From assembly GCA_946614095.1 (NCBI GenBank), contig CAMOGG010000004.1, positions 1-53,732 of the forward strand: a DNA stretch of 53,732 nucleotides, read 5' to 3'. Of this stretch, positions 4,351-16,665 are shown in pieces (the first letter of the stretch is position 1; every line of letters starts with the position of its first letter). Source of the DNA: an uncultured Caryophanales bacterium (lineage in GTDB: Bacteria; Bacillota_I; Bacilli_A; RF39; UBA660). The position numbers were made by a program, and so were the translations under genes. The notes under the pieces are model-generated. The model ran no database searches and was not told the origin of the DNA. It saw only the letters and a list, made by a program, of their open reading frames with translations.

Positions 4351-4393
4351 ATTTTATGATAAAATGAAGTTAAATAAAATAGGAAGTGAAAAC

Positions 4394-5569
4394 ATGTGTA
4401 ATAGTGAAACATTACCAGGAATATTTAGTATTGTAAAAAGAGCAATGTTACTAATACAAATTATAGTACCAATACTATTAATTGTATTTGCATCTATTTC
4501 CTTCATGAAATTAATAAAAAATCCAGAAGAAAAGAATGGTTCAAAAAAAATAATAAATCAGTTTATTGCTGCCATAATTGTCTTCTTTATTCCATTACTT
4601 GTAAATGTAGTAATGAATTTAGCTGGAGATAATAACGAGATAAGTAGTTGTTGGAAACATGCGAATGATAAGATGGAAAGTAATCCAAGTTATCAGAAAA
4701 CGGGAGATAAGGAAAGAAAATCAATTACTTATAGTGCAACCGATTATGAAAAGGGAAAAGCAAGTAACTATTTAGATTTTAGTTGTACAAGTAGTATTGT
4801 AAAATCACAATTTTCTTGTGATACTTTAAAGATAGTAGAGAAACATTTAAATGACTTTGATGCGACAAATTTTAATAGTATTATTAATAATAAATATGGA
4901 GGAGACTTTGAGCAATACGCAAAAAGTCTTGGAGGAATATTTGGAGAGTATTATGGTAAGAAAATGCCAAATGAGACAGAAGCGGATTTTCAACGAGCGG
5001 CTGAATATGTTTTAGGTTGGATGTATATGTATGGTTGGGAGTATATGAGTCATCAAAATAGACATGTAAAGTGTAAAGGAACAGATTGTTTTTATGCAAA
5101 TGGTGGATTTGTAGGAAAATATGTTACGGATCCTGGAGTTAGCCATTATGAACTTAATGTAGGAACTGACTTTGATCATGTCATTTCAGGAAAAAACGGA
5201 GGATCAGGTAGGATGGCATCAGAATGCGGTGATATTGAAGTATTTACTTATAATAAACTCGGAATTGAAATGAAGGGATGGAAACTAGCAAACTTTACAG
5301 GACTTAATGATTTAAAAGTTGGAGATGCGTTTGGAATGTGGAGTTCTAGTGGAGATCAAGAACATATTGTTATTGTTGGAGAAGTTTACTCTGATCGTGT
5401 TGTATTTTATGATACTGGTTCTGTTTATCCTCTTACAAGAAATTACAAGAGAACTATATATAAATCAAACTCAGGTTCTATAGAAGAGGATAAAAAATCT
5501 TTAAAGACAGAATTTCATTATTATGATTCCTATGGAATAAGAAGACACCACAATTTTACAGAATCATAA
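4394..5569 (+). CDS. VirB2/TrbC-like two-helix membrane protein with C-terminal NlpC/P60-like domain (paralogue A)
   Basis: Predicted membrane-anchored cell-wall hydrolase, 391 residues. Residues 1-80 form a two-helix module: hydrophobic helix LLIQIIVPILLIVFASISF, a Lys-rich loop (KNPEEKNGSKK), then a second helix ending AGDNNEISSCW. A basic loop between helices predicts both ends outside, as in VirB2/TrbC pilins. A shared middle region (about 130-225, GIFGEYYGKKMPNE, EYVLGWMYMYGW) precedes a papain-like domain with Cys in SECGD and His in QEHIVIVGEV, the order seen in NlpC/P60 or CHAP enzymes. The start at 4394 follows AGGAAGTGA and is shared with paralogues; an upstream in-frame ATG at 4364 has no good ribosome site. 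The family assignment is by pattern; the substrate is unknown. Confidence 0.85.
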   Translation: MCNSETLPGIFSIVKRAMLLIQIIVPILLIVFASISFMKLIKNPEEKNGSKKIINQFIAAIIVFFIPLLVNVVMNLAGDNNEISSCWKHANDKMESNPSYQKTGDKERKSITYSATDYEKGKASNYLDFSCTSSIVKSQFSCDTLKIVEKHLNDFDATNFNSIINNKYGGDFEQYAKSLGGIFGEYYGKKMPNETEADFQRAAEYVLGWMYMYGWEYMSHQNRHVKCKGTDCFYANGGFVGKYVTDPGVSHYELNVGTDFDHVISGKNGGSGRMASECGDIEVFTYNKLGIEMKGWKLANFTGLNDLKVGDAFGMWSSSGDQEHIVIVGEVYSDRVVFYDTGSVYPLTRNYKRTIYKSNSGSIEEDKKSLKTEFHYYDSYGIRRHHNFTES

Positions 5570-5595
5570 AGAAAAGTATAGAAGGAAGTGAAAAT

Positions 5596-6624
5596 ATGTG
5601 TACTAATCAGTCATTACAAGGAATATTTAGTATTGTAAAAAGAGTAATGTTGCTAATACAAATTATAGTACCGATACTATTAATTGTTTTTGCATCTATT
5701 TCTTTCATGAAATTAGTAAAGAATCCAGAAGAAAGGAATGGTACTAAAAGAATTATTAATCAGTTTATTGCTGCTGTAATTGTTTTCTTTATTCCAATAC
5801 TTGTAAATGTAGTAATGAATTTAGCTGGAGATAATAACGAGATAAGTAGTTGTTGGATGAGTGCAAGTGATAAAAATATAATAAATACTACTTATAATTC
5901 ATCTGGAGAAAAAGAAAGAAAAAAAATAATTTATGATGCAGTAGAATATGAAAAAGGAGAAAGTGGCCATTGGGAAATCGATAATAATAAATACATATAT
6001 CATTATCTTGATGGAACAGCAAAAAAATGGACAGAATCTGAATATGTAGCATGGAATAAGTTAATAGAACAAAATGTAAAAGCAATGGATCCAACAGCAT
6101 ATACAATAACTTATAAAAAGGGTAAAAAAACAATTAATTATTTAGGAATATCACACACTTACAGATGCTCTGATGATACAGCAAACCAAAAAGCAATAGC
6201 AAATGGTGTTTCACCATATGCTATAACAGTAGACTTAGATAATAATCGTCAATCTATATTTGAAAATCATAATGAAGTATGGGAACCAATAAAAAATTTA
6301 AAAGTAAATATTGGAAAAACATGGAAAGAATATGGTAAACCAAATTCTAATCCAAAAATATATGCCAAAGACTCTTTGACACCAACAGGATTATTTTATA
6401 CAGATGGCTGTAATTTAAAAACTTGGGGTGAGGGTCAACCATATTGGGTTGCGTTTGGAGTATATCCTAGAGATAGAGATTTCAACGAGGATTACTTTCA
6501 TACAACGTTAGATAAAGTCTCAGTTGGAAGAGATTGGACACTAGGATGTATTTCTTTAAAAATAGAAGATGCAAAATGGATTTATTATAACTGTGGTAGA
6601 GGTACCCCTGTATTAATTTGGTAA
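5596..6624 (+). CDS. VirB2/TrbC-like two-helix membrane protein with C-terminal L,D-transpeptidase-like domain (paralogue B)
   Basis: The first 80 residues of this 342-residue protein are nearly identical to paralogue A (MCTNQSLQGIFSIVKR, helix, NPEERNGTKR, helix, AGDNNEISSCW), but the rest is different. The C-terminal 120 residues look like a YkuD/ErfK L,D-transpeptidase: TPTGLFYT, an upstream His in FHTTLDK, and GCISLKIEDAKWIYY followed by GTPVLIW, matching the family's HGCIRL..DA..LY....GTPV pattern. The His directly before Gly-Cys is Leu here. Such enzymes make 3-3 crosslinks or attach proteins to peptidoglycan. It has the same Shine-Dalgarno context (GGAAGTGAAAATATGTG) as its neighbours and lies 26 nt after paralogue A. 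Confidence 0.83.
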   Translation: MCTNQSLQGIFSIVKRVMLLIQIIVPILLIVFASISFMKLVKNPEERNGTKRIINQFIAAVIVFFIPILVNVVMNLAGDNNEISSCWMSASDKNIINTTYNSSGEKERKKIIYDAVEYEKGESGHWEIDNNKYIYHYLDGTAKKWTESEYVAWNKLIEQNVKAMDPTAYTITYKKGKKTINYLGISHTYRCSDDTANQKAIANGVSPYAITVDLDNNRQSIFENHNEVWEPIKNLKVNIGKTWKEYGKPNSNPKIYAKDSLTPTGLFYTDGCNLKTWGEGQPYWVAFGVYPRDRDFNEDYFHTTLDKVSVGRDWTLGCISLKIEDAKWIYYNCGRGTPVLIW

Positions 6625-6707
6625 GTTATAATAAATAATTCATGGAAGAACTTATATTAATTTTAAATGGTAGCTTATAGATAATAATAATCAAAGGAAG
6701 TGAAAAC

Positions 6708-7892
6708 ATGTGTAGTAGTGAAACATTACCAGGAATATTAAGTATAGTAAAAAGAATAATGATACTAATCCAAATTGTAGTACCAATACTATTAATTGTT
6801 TTTGCATCCATCTCTCTAATCAAATTATTAAAAAATCCTGAAGAAAAAAATGGTATTAAGAAAATTATTAATCAGTTTATTGCTGCTGTAATTATTTTCT
6901 TTATACCATTACTTGTAAATGTAGTAATGATTCTAGCTGGAGATAGTAACGAGATAAGTAGTTGCTGGAATAATGCCTCAGAAAAAATAATATTAAGTAC
7001 TACTTATAGTCCAATAGAAGAAAAGGAAAAAAAGAAATTTATTCCTAATGCAAAAGACTATGAAGCAGGTAGAGGAGAATTAGATTTCTCCTGTACTAGT
7101 AATACTGTGAAAGCTCAGTTTTCTTGTGAAACATTAAAAATAGTAGAAAAACATTTATATGATCTAAATGCTGATAACTTTCACTCAGTAATTAATTCAG
7201 TTGGAGGGTTTGAAAACTATGCTAAAAGTGTAGGAGGAATCTTTGGAGAATACTATGGTAAGAAGATGCCTAATGAAACAGTAGCTGATTTCCAAAAAGC
7301 ATGTGAATACGTTCTAGGTTGGATGTATATGTATGGCTGGGACTATAAAAATGGTTTTGAAGCTTCAGAAGGTGAACATGTTAAATGGGGAGGCAGGGGT
7401 CATGATTATTCCAAAGATGCTTTTTATTATAATACGAAAGTAAAATGGAAAAGAAAATATGTACCAGATTCTGGAACTACTACAAATTTTGATAATGTTA
7501 TTTCAACAAAAAATACAAATGGAGAAACGTATGCAATGGCTTCAGAATGCGGAGACTTAGCTGGCTTTGTATATAACAAATTAGGTTTAAATGTTAAATT
7601 CAAATCAAGTGATATTCAAAAAGTCAGTTTGAAAGATGTAAGGGTTGGAGATGAAATCCTTTTTGGGAATAAACGAGGTCAAGGACATAATGCTATTGTT
7701 GGAGAAGTTTATAGTGACCACATTGTTGTATATGATGGGGCAAGAATGGTTACTGAAGATAAAAACTACAAGAGAATAGTATATATTCCAACTAATTCAA
7801 ATACAGAAACCGACCTAGCGGCAATAAGACAGTATGTAACATGGTGTGATGAATGGTGGATACGAAGACATCATGATTTTAAAGAATCATAA
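6708..7892 (+). CDS. VirB2/TrbC-like two-helix membrane protein with C-terminal NlpC/P60-like domain (paralogue C)
   Basis: A 394-residue close relative of paralogue A along its whole length: two-helix module (1-80), linker, shared region with LDFSCTSNTVKAQFSCETL and GGIFGEYYGKKMPNE, and a papain-like C-terminal domain with Cys in SECGDLAGFVYNKLG and His in QGHNAIVGEVYSD. Both end in an almost identical RRHHDFKES/RRHHNFTES tail. Cys2 and the Cys of SSCW would both be extracytoplasmic and could form a disulfide. No terminator is evident between A, B and C, so they probably form one transcript. Confidence 0.84.
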   Translation: MCSSETLPGILSIVKRIMILIQIVVPILLIVFASISLIKLLKNPEEKNGIKKIINQFIAAVIIFFIPLLVNVVMILAGDSNEISSCWNNASEKIILSTTYSPIEEKEKKKFIPNAKDYEAGRGELDFSCTSNTVKAQFSCETLKIVEKHLYDLNADNFHSVINSVGGFENYAKSVGGIFGEYYGKKMPNETVADFQKACEYVLGWMYMYGWDYKNGFEASEGEHVKWGGRGHDYSKDAFYYNTKVKWKRKYVPDSGTTTNFDNVISTKNTNGETYAMASECGDLAGFVYNKLGLNVKFKSSDIQKVSLKDVRVGDEILFGNKRGQGHNAIVGEVYSDHIVVYDGARMVTEDKNYKRIVYIPTNSNTETDLAAIRQYVTWCDEWWIRRHHDFKES

Positions 7893-7919
7893 TAGAATAT
7901 CATAGAAAAAAGTGAAAAT

Positions 7920-8133
7920 ATGTATAGTAAAAAGAATAATATTACTAATTCAAATTATAGTACCAATTCCGGAAAAAAAGTTGTAATTGGCGAAGGATAT
8001 AGTATAACGTTGTAATTTATGATGCAGGAATCCACTACTCATCAAATCAAAACTATAAGGACGCAGCTATAAAAAAGTATTTGGTTATTCAAATTGGAGC
8101 ATACGTAGATGGTATGTTTTTGTAGAAAGTTAG
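7920..8133 (+). pseudogene. decayed fifth copy of the two-helix/cell-wall-enzyme family
   Basis: After an AAGTGAAAATATG start like those of the intact copies, a short segment reads CIVKRIILLIQIIVPI (7921-7968), the first helix, and then breaks off. Directly after the break, other frames read VIGEGYS, VVIYDAG..NQNYKD and finally WSIRRWYVFVES before the stop at 8131, matching the last 45 residues of paralogues A and C (VGEVYSDHIVVYDG, NYKR, WWIRRHHDFKES). An internal deletion has thus joined the first helix to the C-terminal end, with frameshifts. This explains the 321-bp space between paralogue C and the next gene. Confidence 0.85.
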
Positions 8134-8138
8134 CATTT

Positions 8139-8168
8139 ATAGAGAAATAAAATCTTTTCTATTTTTTC
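8139..8168 (+). terminator. putative terminator after the decayed paralogue
   Basis: ATAGAGAAA pairs imperfectly with TTTTCTAT and leads into a T tract. It probably ended transcription of the paralogue A-C cluster. A weak -10-like TGATAAAAT follows at 8174-8182 for the next gene. Confidence 0.5.
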
Positions 8169-8213
8169 ATTTCATGATAAAATAATCAATATAGAATAAG
8201 AGGTGGTATTATT

Positions 8214-8795
8214 ATGACAAGAAAGAAAAAAAAAGAAGATTATAATGATTGTTGGATGTATATTTTATTACTAACAACCCTAGTCATCCTACTAGAATCA
8301 TTAAAAACATACACATTCCAAGTAGCAGGAGTACATTTAACATATGCAGTATTCCTTCTCCCATTAATCTATTTACTAGCAAATTATATTACAAAAAAAT
8401 ATGATTATAAAAAGACAGTAGCTGCAATTGCAATATCAGGAGTATTATTTGTAAGTTTTGTTGCTGTAATATCTTTTGCCTTAGGAGAAAGATTAATTCT
8501 TACTAGCTTAACAGGAGAATTCTGTGGATATGTCATTAGCCAATTTGTAAACTTAACGATATATATGTTTCTTTTAAACAATACAAAGTCTCCATTCATA
8601 TTAATACTACTAACATATCTATTCTCATTAATTGTTTACTATATGTTTTATACACTGATTTATTTAAATATGATTACACTAGATACATATTGGAAAGGTT
8701 ATTTCATAACATTAGGAATTCAAACAATATTATGTATCCCAATTTCCTATATTGATAAAAAAATAGCAAGAGGGAAAGAAAAGCTAATAGACTAA
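8214..8795 (+). CDS. Multi-pass membrane protein, VUT/YhhQ-like (possible transporter)
   Basis: A 193-residue, very hydrophobic protein with about six predicted membrane helices and a positively charged N-terminus (MTRKKKKED). The layout, with YILLLTTLVILLESLKTY, LTYAVFLLPLIYLLANYITKKY, YKKTVAAIAISGVLF and a final IPISYIDKKI, resembles VUT/DUF165 proteins such as the queuosine-precursor transporter YhhQ, but no residue is diagnostic and no queuosine gene is nearby. GAGGTGG precedes the ATG. A strong terminator overlaps its 3-prime end. The function is tentative; the reading frame is secure. Confidence 0.7.
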   Translation: MTRKKKKEDYNDCWMYILLLTTLVILLESLKTYTFQVAGVHLTYAVFLLPLIYLLANYITKKYDYKKTVAAIAISGVLFVSFVAVISFALGERLILTSLTGEFCGYVISQFVNLTIYMFLLNNTKSPFILILLTYLFSLIVYYMFYTLIYLNMITLDTYWKGYFITLGIQTILCIPISYIDKKIARGKEKLID

Positions 8796-8812
8796 AACTA
8801 TTAGCTTTTATT
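8781..8812 (+). terminator. terminator of the VUT-like gene
   Basis: A perfect 10-bp stem, AAGCTAATAG (8781-8790) with CTATTAGCTT (8798-8807), loop ACTAAAA, then a T-rich tail. The stop codon lies in the loop. Confidence 0.85.
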
Positions 8813-8840
8813 TTGCAATTTAAAAAAAATATGATACAAT
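8813..8840 (+). promoter_or_regulatory. promoter of the 8869 gene
   Basis: TTGCAA (8813-8818), a 16-bp spacer and TACAAT (8835-8840), with TG two bases before the -10. It lies directly after the preceding terminator. Confidence 0.65.
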
Positions 8841-8868
8841 AAGGTTTCTGGTAGGAAAGGAGAAGAAA

Positions 8869-9516
8869 ATGAAAGCAAATCATAATAGAAAAAATAAAAT
8901 TTATAGACTAAATAATGGTACAATTCAAGTATTTAGTTTTGAACCATTTCAAAGTAGAATTGTTAATTTTCGTCTACAAGAAATGAAAAAAATAAAAGAA
9001 GACGACCAAGTAATAAAAAAAGCTGGTCCATTAACTTGGTTTTCATCAAAAAAGAATGTAATATTTGAATGCGAAGCTTATGTCTTAAAAAGAAATCCAG
9101 CAAAAAGTTTTGAAGAAAAAGAAGACAACTATGCATTAGTAAGAGGATACATCGATGGTATTTATACAAATGCATCAGTTCATATTAGAGAACGTGACGA
9201 TAAAGAAGGAGAATCTATCATTATATTAAATCCAAAACATGATGTTCCAGGAAAACGAATTCAAATAACTCCTGATTTATATTTAGAATATTTACTAGAA
9301 AATGAACGTTTTGAAGAAGAAGCACTTCAAACAGAAGACTTAACAAAAGAAAAAAAATTATTTATAATTTCAGAACAACCAATCATGGAATGTAGTGAAA
9401 ATTCACTTAAGAATCTTATCAATAGTGGTTTAGTAAAAGGAGATTTAGATGAAAAATTAGAACTATTAGAAGGTTCTACAAAAGTATATGAAAAGTTAAA
9501 ACATTCCAAAAAATAA
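8869..9516 (+). CDS. Uncharacterised soluble protein
   Basis: I do not recognise this 215-residue protein. It has no signal peptide or membrane helix. The first 150 residues look like a mixed beta-rich domain (IYRLNNGTIQVFSFEPF, VIFECEAYVLKRN, ALVRGYIDGIYTNASVHIRERD, SIIILNPKH), followed by a charged helical end. AAAGGAG precedes the ATG. It has its own promoter and a shared bidirectional terminator, so it is a single-gene unit between the accessory membrane genes. Confidence 0.75.
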   Translation: MKANHNRKNKIYRLNNGTIQVFSFEPFQSRIVNFRLQEMKKIKEDDQVIKKAGPLTWFSSKKNVIFECEAYVLKRNPAKSFEEKEDNYALVRGYIDGIYTNASVHIRERDDKEGESIIILNPKHDVPGKRIQITPDLYLEYLLENERFEEEALQTEDLTKEKKLFIISEQPIMECSENSLKNLINSGLVKGDLDEKLELLEGSTKVYEKLKHSKK

Positions 9517-9540
9517 GAAACCAAATAAGGTTTCTTTTTA
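9515..9540. terminator. bidirectional terminator between convergent genes
   Basis: AAGAAACC (9515-9522) pairs with GGTTTCTT (9529-9536). T runs flank the stem on both strands, so it can serve the 8869 gene and the convergent CPBP protease gene ending at 9538. Confidence 0.8.
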
Positions 9541-10242
9541 TAATACAAAAATAGATAATAAAACCAAAACAGTATTATGAAACATATGAAGAGAAAGAGA
9601 AGTAAAAATAGTATCAGTCTCATAATAAGCTAGGGCAAATGCACCACCTAAAGCTCCATAAGGAATGATATATAAATAATCTACAAATTGAGTAGCATTA
9701 CCAATTACGTGACCACCACCAAATAGTAGAAAGGAAAGAAATGCAAAAAGCCATTTATTAGAAAAAACATCTTTTAAAGTCTTACGAAAAGCAATTTCTT
9801 CATTAAAAGGAGCAAGAATACCAGCATCAATAAGCATTAACCAAGGAAGAGCATCTAACATATCCTGAACAATCTTTTCATTTCCAGCTCCTCCAGCTTT
9901 AAAGAAGTAAGTAATCATAACATTAGATACCATCATAATGAATAAGCCAACCATCCACCAACGAACACCAATATCCATATTTTCCATAAAGTGTTTTGTA
10001 AACTTTTTAAATTCCTTTTTGACATCTTTCCAATAAATAAATAGAAAAATAAAAAATAAGATAGCACTAGAAAAAGTAGATAATAATACTTGTATTGTTT
10101 TACTAGCTGTATGAGGTTGAATATGGAATAGTCGGATAGGAATATATTGAAAATAAGCACTAAACCAAAACAGAAGAAAAACGATAACACTTCGTATTAT
10201 TACATATAATTTAGGATACTTTTTTATCATTTGATTTATCAT
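9538..10242 (-). CDS. CPBP family intramembrane glutamic endopeptidase (CAAX/Abi-type)
   Basis: A 234-residue membrane protein with about six helices. The CPBP motifs are present: NEEIAFRKTL (EExxxR), GGGHVIGNATQF with the second-motif His, and HMFHNTVLV at the C-terminus. Family members are intramembrane proteases; in Firmicutes some give immunity to bacteriocins, others process membrane proteins. The start has GGTGAT upstream on the minus strand. It is the only minus-strand gene in the accessory block and separates paralogue D from A-C. A role in processing or protecting against the neighbouring fusion proteins is possible but unproven. Confidence 0.88.
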   Translation of the reverse strand: MINQMIKKYPKLYVIIRSVIVFLLFWFSAYFQYIPIRLFHIQPHTASKTIQVLLSTFSSAILFFIFLFIYWKDVKKEFKKFTKHFMENMDIGVRWWMVGLFIMMVSNVMITYFFKAGGAGNEKIVQDMLDALPWLMLIDAGILAPFNEEIAFRKTLKDVFSNKWLFAFLSFLLFGGGHVIGNATQFVDYLYIIPYGALGGAFALAYYETDTIFTSLSLHMFHNTVLVLLSIFVL

Positions 10243-10335
10243 ATTATCACCATTCTAAAGATATCATAAAAATAAAAATATGAAAAGAAAAATATGTTAT
10301 AATTACTTTATTAAGATGAATAAAAGGAGTAAAAA

Positions 10336-11391
10336 ATGGAAATAATGAATCAATGTAATGAACCATCATTAATCATAATCATTCATATTATCAAAAAAAT
10401 ACTATTCTATATTCAAATGTTAGTACCTATTTTACTAATTATATGGGGAAGTATTGGATTTATAAAATTAGTAAAAAGTCCAGAAGAAAAAAATGGTACA
10501 AAGAAAATAATTAATAAATTTCTAGCAGCAGTAGTAGTTTTTATGATACCAGTAATTGTAAATGCAACAATGTATCTAGTAGGAGAAAAAACAAAAATAA
10601 GTAACTGCTGGAATAGTGCAGAAAGCAAAATTATGATGCCTACTTATATTCCTACAAAAAAAGAAAAAGAGAAAAAGAAGATTATTAAAAATCCAGATTC
10701 TTATGAAATAGGAACAGCTAGTACTGGACTAGAAACAGCAAAATTAGCATTACGAGTTGTTCCCACAGCAACACCAGAAAAATCCCTGCACACACCAAAA
10801 TCAAATGAAGAAAATGGAGCTTGGTGTAAGACAAAAGATGAGAGATTATATAACTATTTTAAAATTATGGATGAAACAATTGGAAAATATCCATCTCATG
10901 ATAATAATAATCATAGCAGAAAACAAGGAATAAACAACAATAACGCTTATGCTTCATGTGCCCAAGCAGTAGCAGGAATTGTTAGAGCAACCGTAGATCC
11001 AGACTTTGAATCTGGAAGTCCAGATTTAGAATTAGATTATTTAAAACAAAATGAAGAAAAATGGAATCTAGTCGCAAGATTAAAAGCAGGGGAACGTTAT
11101 GATTCCATATGTCAGCCAGGAGATGTTATTTTTTTAGAGAAATTTTCAAACCACGTAATGATATATATAGGAAATGAATTGGTAAGAGAAAAATTTCCAA
11201 ATTCTAATGGAGATATGTATGAAGCCTCTTATAGTGAAGACCGATACCCAACCATTACCCATCATGAAATTGTCTATGGAACATACGCCAGAATATATCG
11301 TGCAACAGGAGAAGGAAAATTTTACTATCCATTCATTGATATCGAAAAAACATTAAGTAATCCGGTTGATTTAAACAAACAAATGTGTTAA
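10336..11391 (+). CDS. VirB2/TrbC-like two-helix membrane protein with C-terminal NlpC/P60-like domain (paralogue D)
   Basis: A 351-residue member of the fusion family. The N-terminal module is more divergent than in A-C but keeps the plan: helix LFYIQMLVPILLIIWGSIGF, loop KSPEEKNGTKK, second helix ending GEKTKISNCW. The C-terminal domain (about 175-330) has Cys in AYASCAQAVAGIV, PGDVIFLE and His in SNHVMIYIGNELV, a typical NlpC/P60-like order. The catalytic domain differs from those of A and C and lacks their shared middle region. AAAGGAG precedes the ATG at 10336. It has its own upstream TATAAT (10298-10303) and lies just before the rpsO promoter. Confidence 0.83.
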   Translation: MEIMNQCNEPSLIIIIHIIKKILFYIQMLVPILLIIWGSIGFIKLVKSPEEKNGTKKIINKFLAAVVVFMIPVIVNATMYLVGEKTKISNCWNSAESKIMMPTYIPTKKEKEKKKIIKNPDSYEIGTASTGLETAKLALRVVPTATPEKSLHTPKSNEENGAWCKTKDERLYNYFKIMDETIGKYPSHDNNNHSRKQGINNNNAYASCAQAVAGIVRATVDPDFESGSPDLELDYLKQNEEKWNLVARLKAGERYDSICQPGDVIFLEKFSNHVMIYIGNELVREKFPNSNGDMYEASYSEDRYPTITHHEIVYGTYARIYRATGEGKFYYPFIDIEKTLSNPVDLNKQMC

Positions 11392-14079: not shown

Positions 14080-14103
14080 ATGGGCATACGGAGGGTGAGT
14101 GGA

Positions 14104-14469
14104 ATGAGTGATTTAATAAGAAGTATCATAAAATGGATAATAGTAGTACTAATTATAATCTTTATAATTTTCCTATTAGCAAAACTAGCAGACAATGAAA
14201 CAAAATCAAAATCAAATATAAATACAAATACAGGAATTAAGACAATAAAGAGTAGTCAAGCAACAAATACAACCAATACAAATAATAACAATAATAATAC
14301 AGAGAATACAAATACAACAACGGATACCAATACAAATACAAGTAACACAACAGTTGTAGATTCTCCTGATACCGCAACAACGCCAGGTATCAGTATCCTT
14401 TTAGGAACAATCATATTAGGAGGAAGTACATACTATATCTATAAAAATAAAAAATTATTAAATAATTAA
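14104..14469 (+). CDS. Small membrane-anchored protein with Asn/Thr-rich stalk and sorting-signal-like C-terminus
   Basis: A 121-residue protein. An N-terminal hydrophobic helix (about 7-28, WIIVVLIIIFIIFLLAKLA) is followed by some 60 residues made almost only of Asn, Thr and Ser, then VDSPDTATTPG, a second hydrophobic stretch and the basic end YKNKKLLNN. The last part looks like a sortase signal with a non-canonical SPDTA in place of LPxTG. The ATG at 14104 follows GGAGGGTGA and is preferred over 14080, which overlaps the promoter. No known function; it could be a wall-spanning tether. It lies between pnp and a ylxY-like gene. Confidence 0.75.
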   Translation: MSDLIRSIIKWIIVVLIIIFIIFLLAKLADNETKSKSNINTNTGIKTIKSSQATNTTNTNNNNNNTENTNTTTDTNTNTSNTTVVDSPDTATTPGISILLGTIILGGSTYYIYKNKKLLNN

Positions 14470-15414: not shown

Positions 15415-16665
15415 ATGAAAAAAATAAAAATTACTTGGTTATTATTAATGATATTATTAATTGATAATCCATCATGTTTGGCTCTTACTAAAAGTGAATT
15501 AACAGTTTTAAATTTAAATCCTATCGCAACCGTAGAAAAGCCAGAAGGTTATACGAGTGTACAAGGTGGAACCACAACGGATAAATATGTAATAACATTA
15601 TTCATTAATCAAAATGAAAATTCAGATGGAAAATGTGCTATTATGGCACTCAATAAAAAGAATTATAAAAAAGTGAGACTTCTAAAAAATCCCATTAGAG
15701 AATATAATTTTGGTCATGCCAATGATGCTACTTATAATTCCCTAACCAATGAATTAGTCATATTAAGTGGAAAAAAGTTAAACTTTTTAGATTTAACAGA
15801 TGATAAATTCACTCTAACAAGAACAGTAAATTTAGAAAAATACTATCATGCAGTTGGTTATGATGAAGAAAATGATCAATATGTTCTCGCAAGAGGAATT
15901 GATGGAGGAACATTCTTTGAAATCAGAAATAATGAATTTGAAATCATTAGAACGTTTATTTTAAAAACAAATTTAACCAAACAATCTCTAACGGTTTATA
16001 AAGGTAATATTTATTATGTTTGCTATGAAGCAGGTAGACTAACCAAATATCAAAGTGTCTATGATGGACTATTAAAAAGAAAAGAAAACTTAATTTATGT
16101 TTATAATTTAAAAGGAGAAAAACAAACCATTTATTATATTCCATATTCTTATAAAGAAGTAATCTTTGGAGAAATAGAAAATATATCCTTTAATCATGAT
16201 AAAATGTTAATACAATTTAATCATGCTCAAAAAGCTGGATATTTTACTGCTGAATATCCAAAAGAAGTAGAAACAAAAGTAAAATTAAACTTAAAAGAAG
16301 AAGATAATATAGAATACACTCTATATCAAGATGAGAAAGAAGTATTAAAAATAAAAACAAAAAATAATGAATTAGAATTTAACTTACATTATACAGAAGA
16401 AGGAACTTATCAGTATACAATACAACAAAAAAAGAAAGAAGTACAAAAAGAAGAAACAGAAATGGTTTTCGAGGAAGAAGAGCTTGAAAAAATAAAAAAA
16501 CCATTAGAAGTAACGGTTTATTATGATCCAGTAGTCAATCGCTTAAGAGCAACTACGAACTCAAAAGATTTACAATGGAATAAAGAATATTTCTATTCCA
16601 AAACAGAATTAAAGAAACTACAAGAATCAGAAAAGGAGACACTTCCAGATACAGGCATCTCCTAA
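15415..16665 (+). CDS. Secreted beta-propeller-like protein ending in LPDTG without a membrane tail
   Basis: 416 residues with a signal peptide (MKKIKITWLLLMILLIDNPSCLA). The body (about 30-270) has repeated beta-strand motifs around a propeller-like pattern (TDKYVITLFINQN, NELVILSGKKLNFLDL, NDQYVLARG, GNIYYVCYEAG), followed by a Lys/Glu-rich beta region. The protein ends TLPDTGIS: a canonical LPxTG sortase motif, but the hydrophobic segment and basic tail needed for a working signal are missing. The convergent lipoprotein gene overlaps the stop. The function is unknown. Confidence 0.78.
   Translation: MKKIKITWLLLMILLIDNPSCLALTKSELTVLNLNPIATVEKPEGYTSVQGGTTTDKYVITLFINQNENSDGKCAIMALNKKNYKKVRLLKNPIREYNFGHANDATYNSLTNELVILSGKKLNFLDLTDDKFTLTRTVNLEKYYHAVGYDEENDQYVLARGIDGGTFFEIRNNEFEIIRTFILKTNLTKQSLTVYKGNIYYVCYEAGRLTKYQSVYDGLLKRKENLIYVYNLKGEKQTIYYIPYSYKEVIFGEIENISFNHDKMLIQFNHAQKAGYFTAEYPKEVETKVKLNLKEEDNIEYTLYQDEKEVLKIKTKNNELEFNLHYTEEGTYQYTIQQKKKEVQKEETEMVFEEEELEKIKKPLEVTVYYDPVVNRLRATTNSKDLQWNKEYFYSKTELKKLQESEKETLPDTGIS

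Follow-up and report, generated by a model that had tools for sequence, protein, structure and literature searches.

VirB2-like pilin modules fused to many different enzymes in a family of gut Bacilli: a possible pilus or platform for secretion with exchangeable tools

The 53,732-nucleotide contig CAMOGG010000004.1 of an uncultured Caryophanales bacterium (at its full length, the window) carries four intact genes, all on the forward strand between positions 4394 and 11391, whose products join a common N-terminal module, resembling the VirB2 pilins of type IV secretion systems (T4SSs), to different C-terminal tails. Fusion protein 1 (4394..5569, +) consists of the module (4397-4759) and a papain-like tail (4760-5566); its open reading frame extends over 4364-5569, and 4394 is the better start. 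Protein 2 (5596..6624, +) has its module at 5599-5961 and a YkuD L,D-transpeptidase tail at 5962-6621. Protein 3 (6708..7892, +; module 6711-7070) ends in a papain-like tail (7071-7889) related to that of protein 1, and protein 4 (10336..11391, +; module 10354-10716) ends in an NlpC/P60-like tail (10717-11388). A GGAAGTGAAAA box precedes the start at 4394 and is found again before the copies at 5596 and 6708, and the start context GGAAGTGAAAAYATGTGT is common to these three genes. Remnants of a broken fifth copy lie at 7918..8068 (+) as a helix-1 piece (7918-7968) and a tail piece (8009-8068) in differing frames (tblastn E 6e-5 and 0.001). The fusion genes are flanked by core genes, rbfA on one side and rpsO/pnp on the other; this location, and the lack of any match among viral contigs, led us to reject a phage or prophage origin for them.

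The initial annotation of this DNA had recognised four intact proteins with a common N-terminal module, and the reading frames bear this out, the module being 46-76% identical between the copies. Proteins 1 and 2 are 84% identical in module DNA and 76% in module amino acids with unrelated tails, and proteins 1 and 3, also 84% identical in module DNA, have tails that are 55% identical. The Pfam profile T4SS_pilin (PF18895) matches all four proteins at E values from 1e-3 to 3e-6 (2.9e-6 for 5596, 1.1e-5 for 6708 and 0.0012 for 10336), with only 5596 exceeding the curated cut-off. The L,D-transpeptidase assignment likewise stands, as the 5596 tail covers the full YkuD profile (E 3.1e-12) and keeps the catalytic cysteine motif DWTLGCIS. 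The 10336 tail matches NLPC_P60 at E 0.003, below the curated cut-off, has Cys/His motifs and groups with 10 other copies in the tail clustering. The tails of 4394 and 6708 have no Pfam match. The best Foldseek matches of the predicted 4394 tail are papain-like enzymes of the CHAP, NlpC/P60 and C39 kinds, weakly (E 0.03-0.3), and it has a cysteine (ECGD) and a histidine (EHIV) at papain-like positions.

The module is some 120 residues long and comprises two membrane helices with invariant prolines, cysteines flanking the helix pair and a Y...YExG linker. The cysteines near the N-terminus and after helix 2 had been noted at the outset; the length of 80 residues then given to the module falls short, as conservation runs on to about residue 120, where the linker lies. 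C1, P25, P43, P66 and C85 are invariant in 61/61 non-redundant modules, and I26, K46, N54, A58, F63, Y99 and Y117 are at least 90% conserved. An AlphaFold2 model of the module is a helical hairpin with helices at 6-41 and 46-75 and a short one at 81-88 (mean predicted local distance difference test score 80). The interhelix loop is net positive in 93/93 modules and the N-terminus in 5%, a pattern that agrees with the topology first proposed, with both ends outside. The positive loop and the extracellular enzyme tails together therefore support a hairpin predicted to have both ends outside and its loop in the cytoplasm. With this topology the cysteine pair would also lie outside, so that a disulfide is possible. 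The linker, of the form Y...(K)..I.....YExG (module positions 99-120) and presumably extracellular, follows directly on the hairpin, and modules that stand alone stop just past it; it may be an assembly tail or a processing or capping site. A lipoprotein reading of the N-terminal cysteine was rejected, since most members have no lipobox-type signal peptide and a median of 9 residues before the cysteine. One relative (locus L086) has a clear signal peptide ahead of the cysteine, as do the second pilins of the T4SS operon described below.

The window samples a much larger family. The genome to which it belongs is a metagenome-assembled genome (MAG) of 1.38 Mb, 76% complete, in which the first 93 residues, used as query in a plain protein search, give 24 module matches, about 20 of them full fusions of 319-415 amino acids on 11 contigs. 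Their tails include Amidase_3 (E 2.6e-10), metallo-beta-lactamase (5e-13), NlpC/P60 (2e-5) and, weakly, a D-Ala-D-Ala carboxypeptidase of the S11 kind (8e-4; SxxK, SG and KSG motifs visible), together with SGNH/DUF4886-like and beta-propeller-like tails assigned by sequence inspection and cluster relatives. Among genomes of the same genus 35/36 have the module, in 1-23 copies each, and the 97 distinct module proteins fall into 18 tail clusters. Pfam finds T4SS_pilin in 50 of 71 fused members (about 280-594 amino acids) at E<=1e-3, the best at 2.2e-9, and in their tails NLPC_P60, Glucosaminidase, NAGPA, Lactamase_B, Esterase, S11, CHAP, GH114, YkuD, Amidase_3, DUF4886 and GDSL. At least 12 kinds of tail thus occur across the genus, mostly envelope-acting or extracellular hydrolases. 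The initial annotation had spoken of interchangeable cell-wall enzymes. The tails are interchangeable, in far more types than the window shows, and related genomes do carry the module on other C-terminal domains, esterase, GH114 and NAGPA among them. Many tails are of kinds that attack peptidoglycan, as supposed, but ‘wall enzymes’ is too narrow a term for a set that includes esterases, SGNH hydrolases, the metallo-beta-lactamase fold, GH114, NAGPA and beta-propeller-like domains. Relatives also encode at least 12 stand-alone modules of about 122-148 amino acids, which end at the linker and often lie beside fused ones.

A profile of the module (A1) matched 323/337 genomes of an order sample, all one family, in 101/107 genera; outside the genus many of the proteins matched are pilins that stand alone or lie in the operon. 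A sample drawn across the class had the module in 18/19 genomes of this family and in 0/140 genomes outside it. Within the genomes searched, no family other than this uncultured one of the Bacilli thus gave sequence matches to the module, and the related module-bearing MAGs come from gut and rumen. Other genera of the family have fusions as well (L169-L175). One further protein (L143:1229-2743) combines a signal peptide, a VirB2-like hairpin and a glycosyl hydrolase 99-like tail (Pfam E 5e-8), so that enzyme grafting occurs also on a pilin with a cleavable signal. The reverse architecture, with a signal peptide, an ectodomain of 250-350 amino acids and then a C-terminal two-helix pilin, is encoded in or beside the T4SS operon of other genera (L163:12933-14063, L164:1027-2364, L164:14983-16308 and L165:15088-16377; minus strand), and these VirB2-like proteins are the N-terminal counterpart of the enzyme fusions.

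Tails have been exchanged between modules. On the module tree, which has 97 columns and low resolution, tail types are clustered, yet 39 changes are needed to explain their distribution against a minimum of 18. The 5596 module with its YkuD tail falls inside a papain-like clade with 99% support. Within one genome, modules 81% identical in amino acids carry SGNH and NAGPA tails (L089), and modules 79% identical carry glucosaminidase and esterase tails (L098/L099). At L076 two modules are 99% identical, one stopping after YENG and the other running into an SGNH domain. Near-identical modules with unrelated tails mean that one module has been re-used with different enzymes, and new tools would arise by copying the module in front of another catalytic domain.

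Relatives of the module lie in a T4SS gene cluster of the same genome. The VirB4 and VirB6 genes that the initial annotation had thought worth seeking elsewhere in the genome are both present, on contig C2 (G000:C2:18000-36000, locus L031). The block there has a tight adherence (Tad) part with CpaB-, CpaF-, TadB- and TadC-like genes, two pilin-like genes and a CpaE-like gene, and a T4SS part with two VirB2-like genes, a VirB6-like gene, VirB4, SpoIID+C39 and VirD4. Pfam E values are 6e-9 for the VirB6-like protein (TrbL_4), 3e-12 for VirB4 (AAA_10), 6e-11 for SpoIID and 8e-57 for VirD4 (T4SS-DNA_transf); for VirB6 the TrbL profile PF04610 gave no match and PF19597 (TrbL_4) matched instead. The operon pilins sit between the CpaE-like gene and VirB6. 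By plain tblastn in its own genome a window module is 38% identical to the first VirB2-like protein of the operon (E 3.5e-10), and a module profile built without the operon pilins recovers both of them (E 5e-13 for the first and 2e-9 for the second). Comparison by hhalign of modules with operon pilins of several genomes gives a probability of 99.3%, E 3e-20 and 34% identity. Both groups have a proline in the first helix, an N-terminal cysteine and a cysteine, often as CW, after helix 2. At the level of sequence the module is thus shown to be homologous to the stand-alone VirB2-like pilins of the same genomes' T4SS, which upholds the VirB2-like assignment. For the TrbC likeness proposed with it, PF04956 found nothing in the four window proteins at E<=1.

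The operon order is VirB2-VirB2-VirB6-(TcpE-like)-VirB4-SpoIID/C39-VirD4, and the core is largely syntenic in eight further genomes; in one genome (G173) VirB2-like genes form an array within and around the T4SS cluster. The TcpE-like match between VirB6 and VirB4 is weak (E 0.024). The protein concerned (L158:12377-12694, with equivalents at L160 and L163-L167) has 105-113 amino acids and an N-terminal ‘NxYLIPANxxxx(L/Q)LI’, and it possibly occupies the VirB3/PrgI position. The Tad-like genes (CpaB, CpaF, TadB, TadC and CpaE-like) are joined directly to the T4SS at L031 and L157-L167, the Tad part lying outside the stretch examined in G066 and G167. A sortase match lies upstream of the Tad/T4SS block (C2:14926-15393). 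The core VirB4 is usually single-copy and 70-92% identical across the family, unlike VirB4 copies of the integrative and conjugative element (ICE) type (26-34%), so the machine belongs to the core genome and is not a passing ICE. This identity, with synteny across genera, disfavours the T4SS as an ICE passenger. The closest named system in NCBIfam is the mollicute ICE set (VirB4 against NF045975, E 1.2e-104). No PF03432 (MobP) relaxase was found in the 76% complete MAG, other relaxase families not having been searched.

A shared module carrying many enzymes points to a pilus or platform for secretion whose tools are interchangeable. The established family, with its module and tails, its homology to the operon pilins, the core T4SS and the swapping of tails, leads us to a reading to which we give an even chance: that the fusions are ‘modular’ VirB2-like pilins, copies of the cell's own T4SS pilin subunit with grafted interchangeable enzymes, which would be incorporated into the T4SS. 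We propose tentatively, with slightly less confidence than an even chance would imply, that the T4SS of this Gram-positive lineage has a pilus or platform of VirB2-like subunits, many carrying different enzymes, and that the tool set is altered by shuffling catalytic domains. The module would enter the membrane as a hairpin, its Lys-rich loop on the inner side and its two termini on the outer, as the charge pattern supports; one relative has a signal peptide. The two invariant cysteines outside could close the hairpin or join subunits by a disulfide. The hairpin might then pack, via the conserved prolines and asparagine, against further VirB2-like subunits at the VirB6/VirB4 machine, giving a platform or pilus that would keep the enzymes at the envelope or bring them to the surface of the cell itself or of a neighbour. 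There the tails could cut or remodel peptidoglycan and other glycans, whether to get through the wall, to scavenge muropeptides or to attack. Related orders are predicted to have thin walls and to lack muropeptide precursor steps (PMC10868615), which scavenging would fit, although this is speculation. The genome has wall machinery of its own (FtsW/RodA 1e-84 and S11 9e-46, both in the window) and six sortase matches, so neither a missing wall nor missing anchors can explain the family; the sortases refute the idea, suggested by the same study for related orders, that a new anchor was needed for want of sortase. The window also encodes two secreted proteins with LPxTG-like C-terminal motifs, at 15415-16665 and 14080-14469 (LPDTGIS at the very end; a TTPG-type tail with a membrane segment).

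Presence of the module goes with that of the machine. In 42 family genomes, hand-picked from both ends of the module table, the module and core VirB4 occur together in 24, the module alone in 3, VirB4 alone in 5 and neither in 10 (Fisher p 4e-4). Several points weigh against incorporation into the T4SS. The co-occurrence sample is hand-picked and phylogenetically non-independent, the operon's own pilins are counted among its modules, and it holds the three genomes with a module and no detected core VirB4 and the five of the converse kind, the MAGs being incomplete. The fusion genes are scattered over many contigs outside the T4SS operon, and most single PF18895 scores are below the curated cut-off. 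A fold search with the hairpin gave no significant match, returning only generic helical hairpins (EsxA, c-ring and designed bundles), and a sequence search of it against the PDB gave only chance matches to G-protein-coupled receptors. Incorporation into a T4SS filament, polymerisation on VirB6/VirB4 and contact with the T4SS are inferences, and the oligomerisation, pore or lytic machine considered in the initial annotation is conjecture.

The chief rival, a real possibility though less likely than not, is that the VirB2-descended hairpin merely tethers extracellular enzymes to the membrane and has no T4SS role. That the fusion genes lie apart from the T4SS operon and form many small tandem groups would fit this, as would their forming a subfamily with a Y...YExG linker that the operon pilins lack, tails like those of ordinary wall hydrolases, and a genome (G006) with a fused copy (L168) in which core VirB4 was not detected. 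Conservation in the helices (three invariant prolines, the asparagine and the cysteine pair), however, goes beyond what a simple anchor needs, enzyme-free modules exist, some beside fused ones, and the sortases make other surface anchors available; moreover, 9/14 family genomes without any module match are also without core VirB4. At the other extreme the hairpin might be an unrelated look-alike, in that any hydrophobic hairpin would match T4SS_pilin and the VirB2 link would be coincidental. PF18895 does match 11/14 control genomes weakly, above the cut-off in only one, single Pfam scores are modest and the structural match is absent; but the 38% identity and the profile match at E 3e-20 to operon pilins of the same genomes, the proline and cysteine positions in common and the empty result from 140 other Bacilli genomes make coincidence most improbable.

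The module could also be an export tag, by which the T4SS would deliver variable enzymes, as polymorphic effectors, to neighbouring bacteria or to the host. A constant N-terminus and variable C-terminus, arrays of paralogues, tail swapping, the many peptidoglycan-attacking tails and the VirD4 coupling protein are all in keeping with this. We nevertheless consider it unlikely: inspection by eye of the loci read showed no immunity genes systematically next to the fusions, no dedicated analysis having been made, the tails are typical wall-remodelling or hydrolase enzymes, and a two-helix membrane module is unlike the known, hydrophilic T4SS signals. With the machine, plain pilins and fused subunits all identified, the incorporation of the fusions as modular pilins is open to direct test.

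According to a 2025 review of T4SSs, Gram-positive systems have no VirB2 pilins, Patescibacteria excepted (PMC12857230). Here a whole family of gut Bacilli has VirB2-like pilins in a conserved chromosomal T4SS, and in it a pilin subunit has come to carry hydrolase and other tail domains of at least 12 kinds. If the modular-pilin reading is true, modular pilins are not confined to type IV pili but occur in T4SS pili as well, there is a concrete function for T4SSs no longer used in conjugation, and gut bacteria that have small genomes and incomplete pathways for wall precursors might have a route for processing peptidoglycan outside the cell. We found no description of enzyme-fused VirB2-like pilins in the open-licence literature, which does not prove their absence elsewhere.

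Four known systems invite comparison. The T4SS of Patescibacteria, as far as the consulted parts of the accounts describe it (PMC12102498, PMC12857230), is likewise found in monoderms with reduced genomes and has chromosomal VirB4, VirB6 and VirD4 and several divergent PF18895-type two-helix pilins per genome. Arrays of 2-11 VirB2-like genes lie near virB4 in that phylum, whereas the fusions here, in another phylum, are dispersed over the genome; those parts of the source tell of pilin genes only and mention no enzyme domains (PMC12102498). The mollicute ICE (Mbov_0395, pilin-like, Mbov_0396 and Mbov_0397; NF045849, NF045889 and NF045975) also has pilin-like, VirB6-like and VirB4 genes. It is a mobile conjugative element with a stand-alone pilin-like protein, unlike the present system, which is core and vertically conserved, in which a MobP relaxase was not found and which includes enzyme fusions. 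VirB1 and the SpoIID-C39-type wall enzymes, of which SpoIID is in the operon here, are peptidoglycan enzymes serving T4SSs, but they are separate operon-encoded proteins, neither fused to pilins nor present as multiple paralogues. The modular type 4 pilins of Streptococcus sanguinis, PilB and PilC (PMC9934059), are similar in that a variable C-terminal domain is displayed by a surface filament, a filament that in our case is a proposal. They have a class III signal peptide and a one-helix lollipop fold unrelated to VirB2 hairpins, whereas the present module begins with M-C-x-x-x and a two-helix hairpin and has neither of these features; and their grafts are adhesins or lectins, whereas the grafts here are enzymes.

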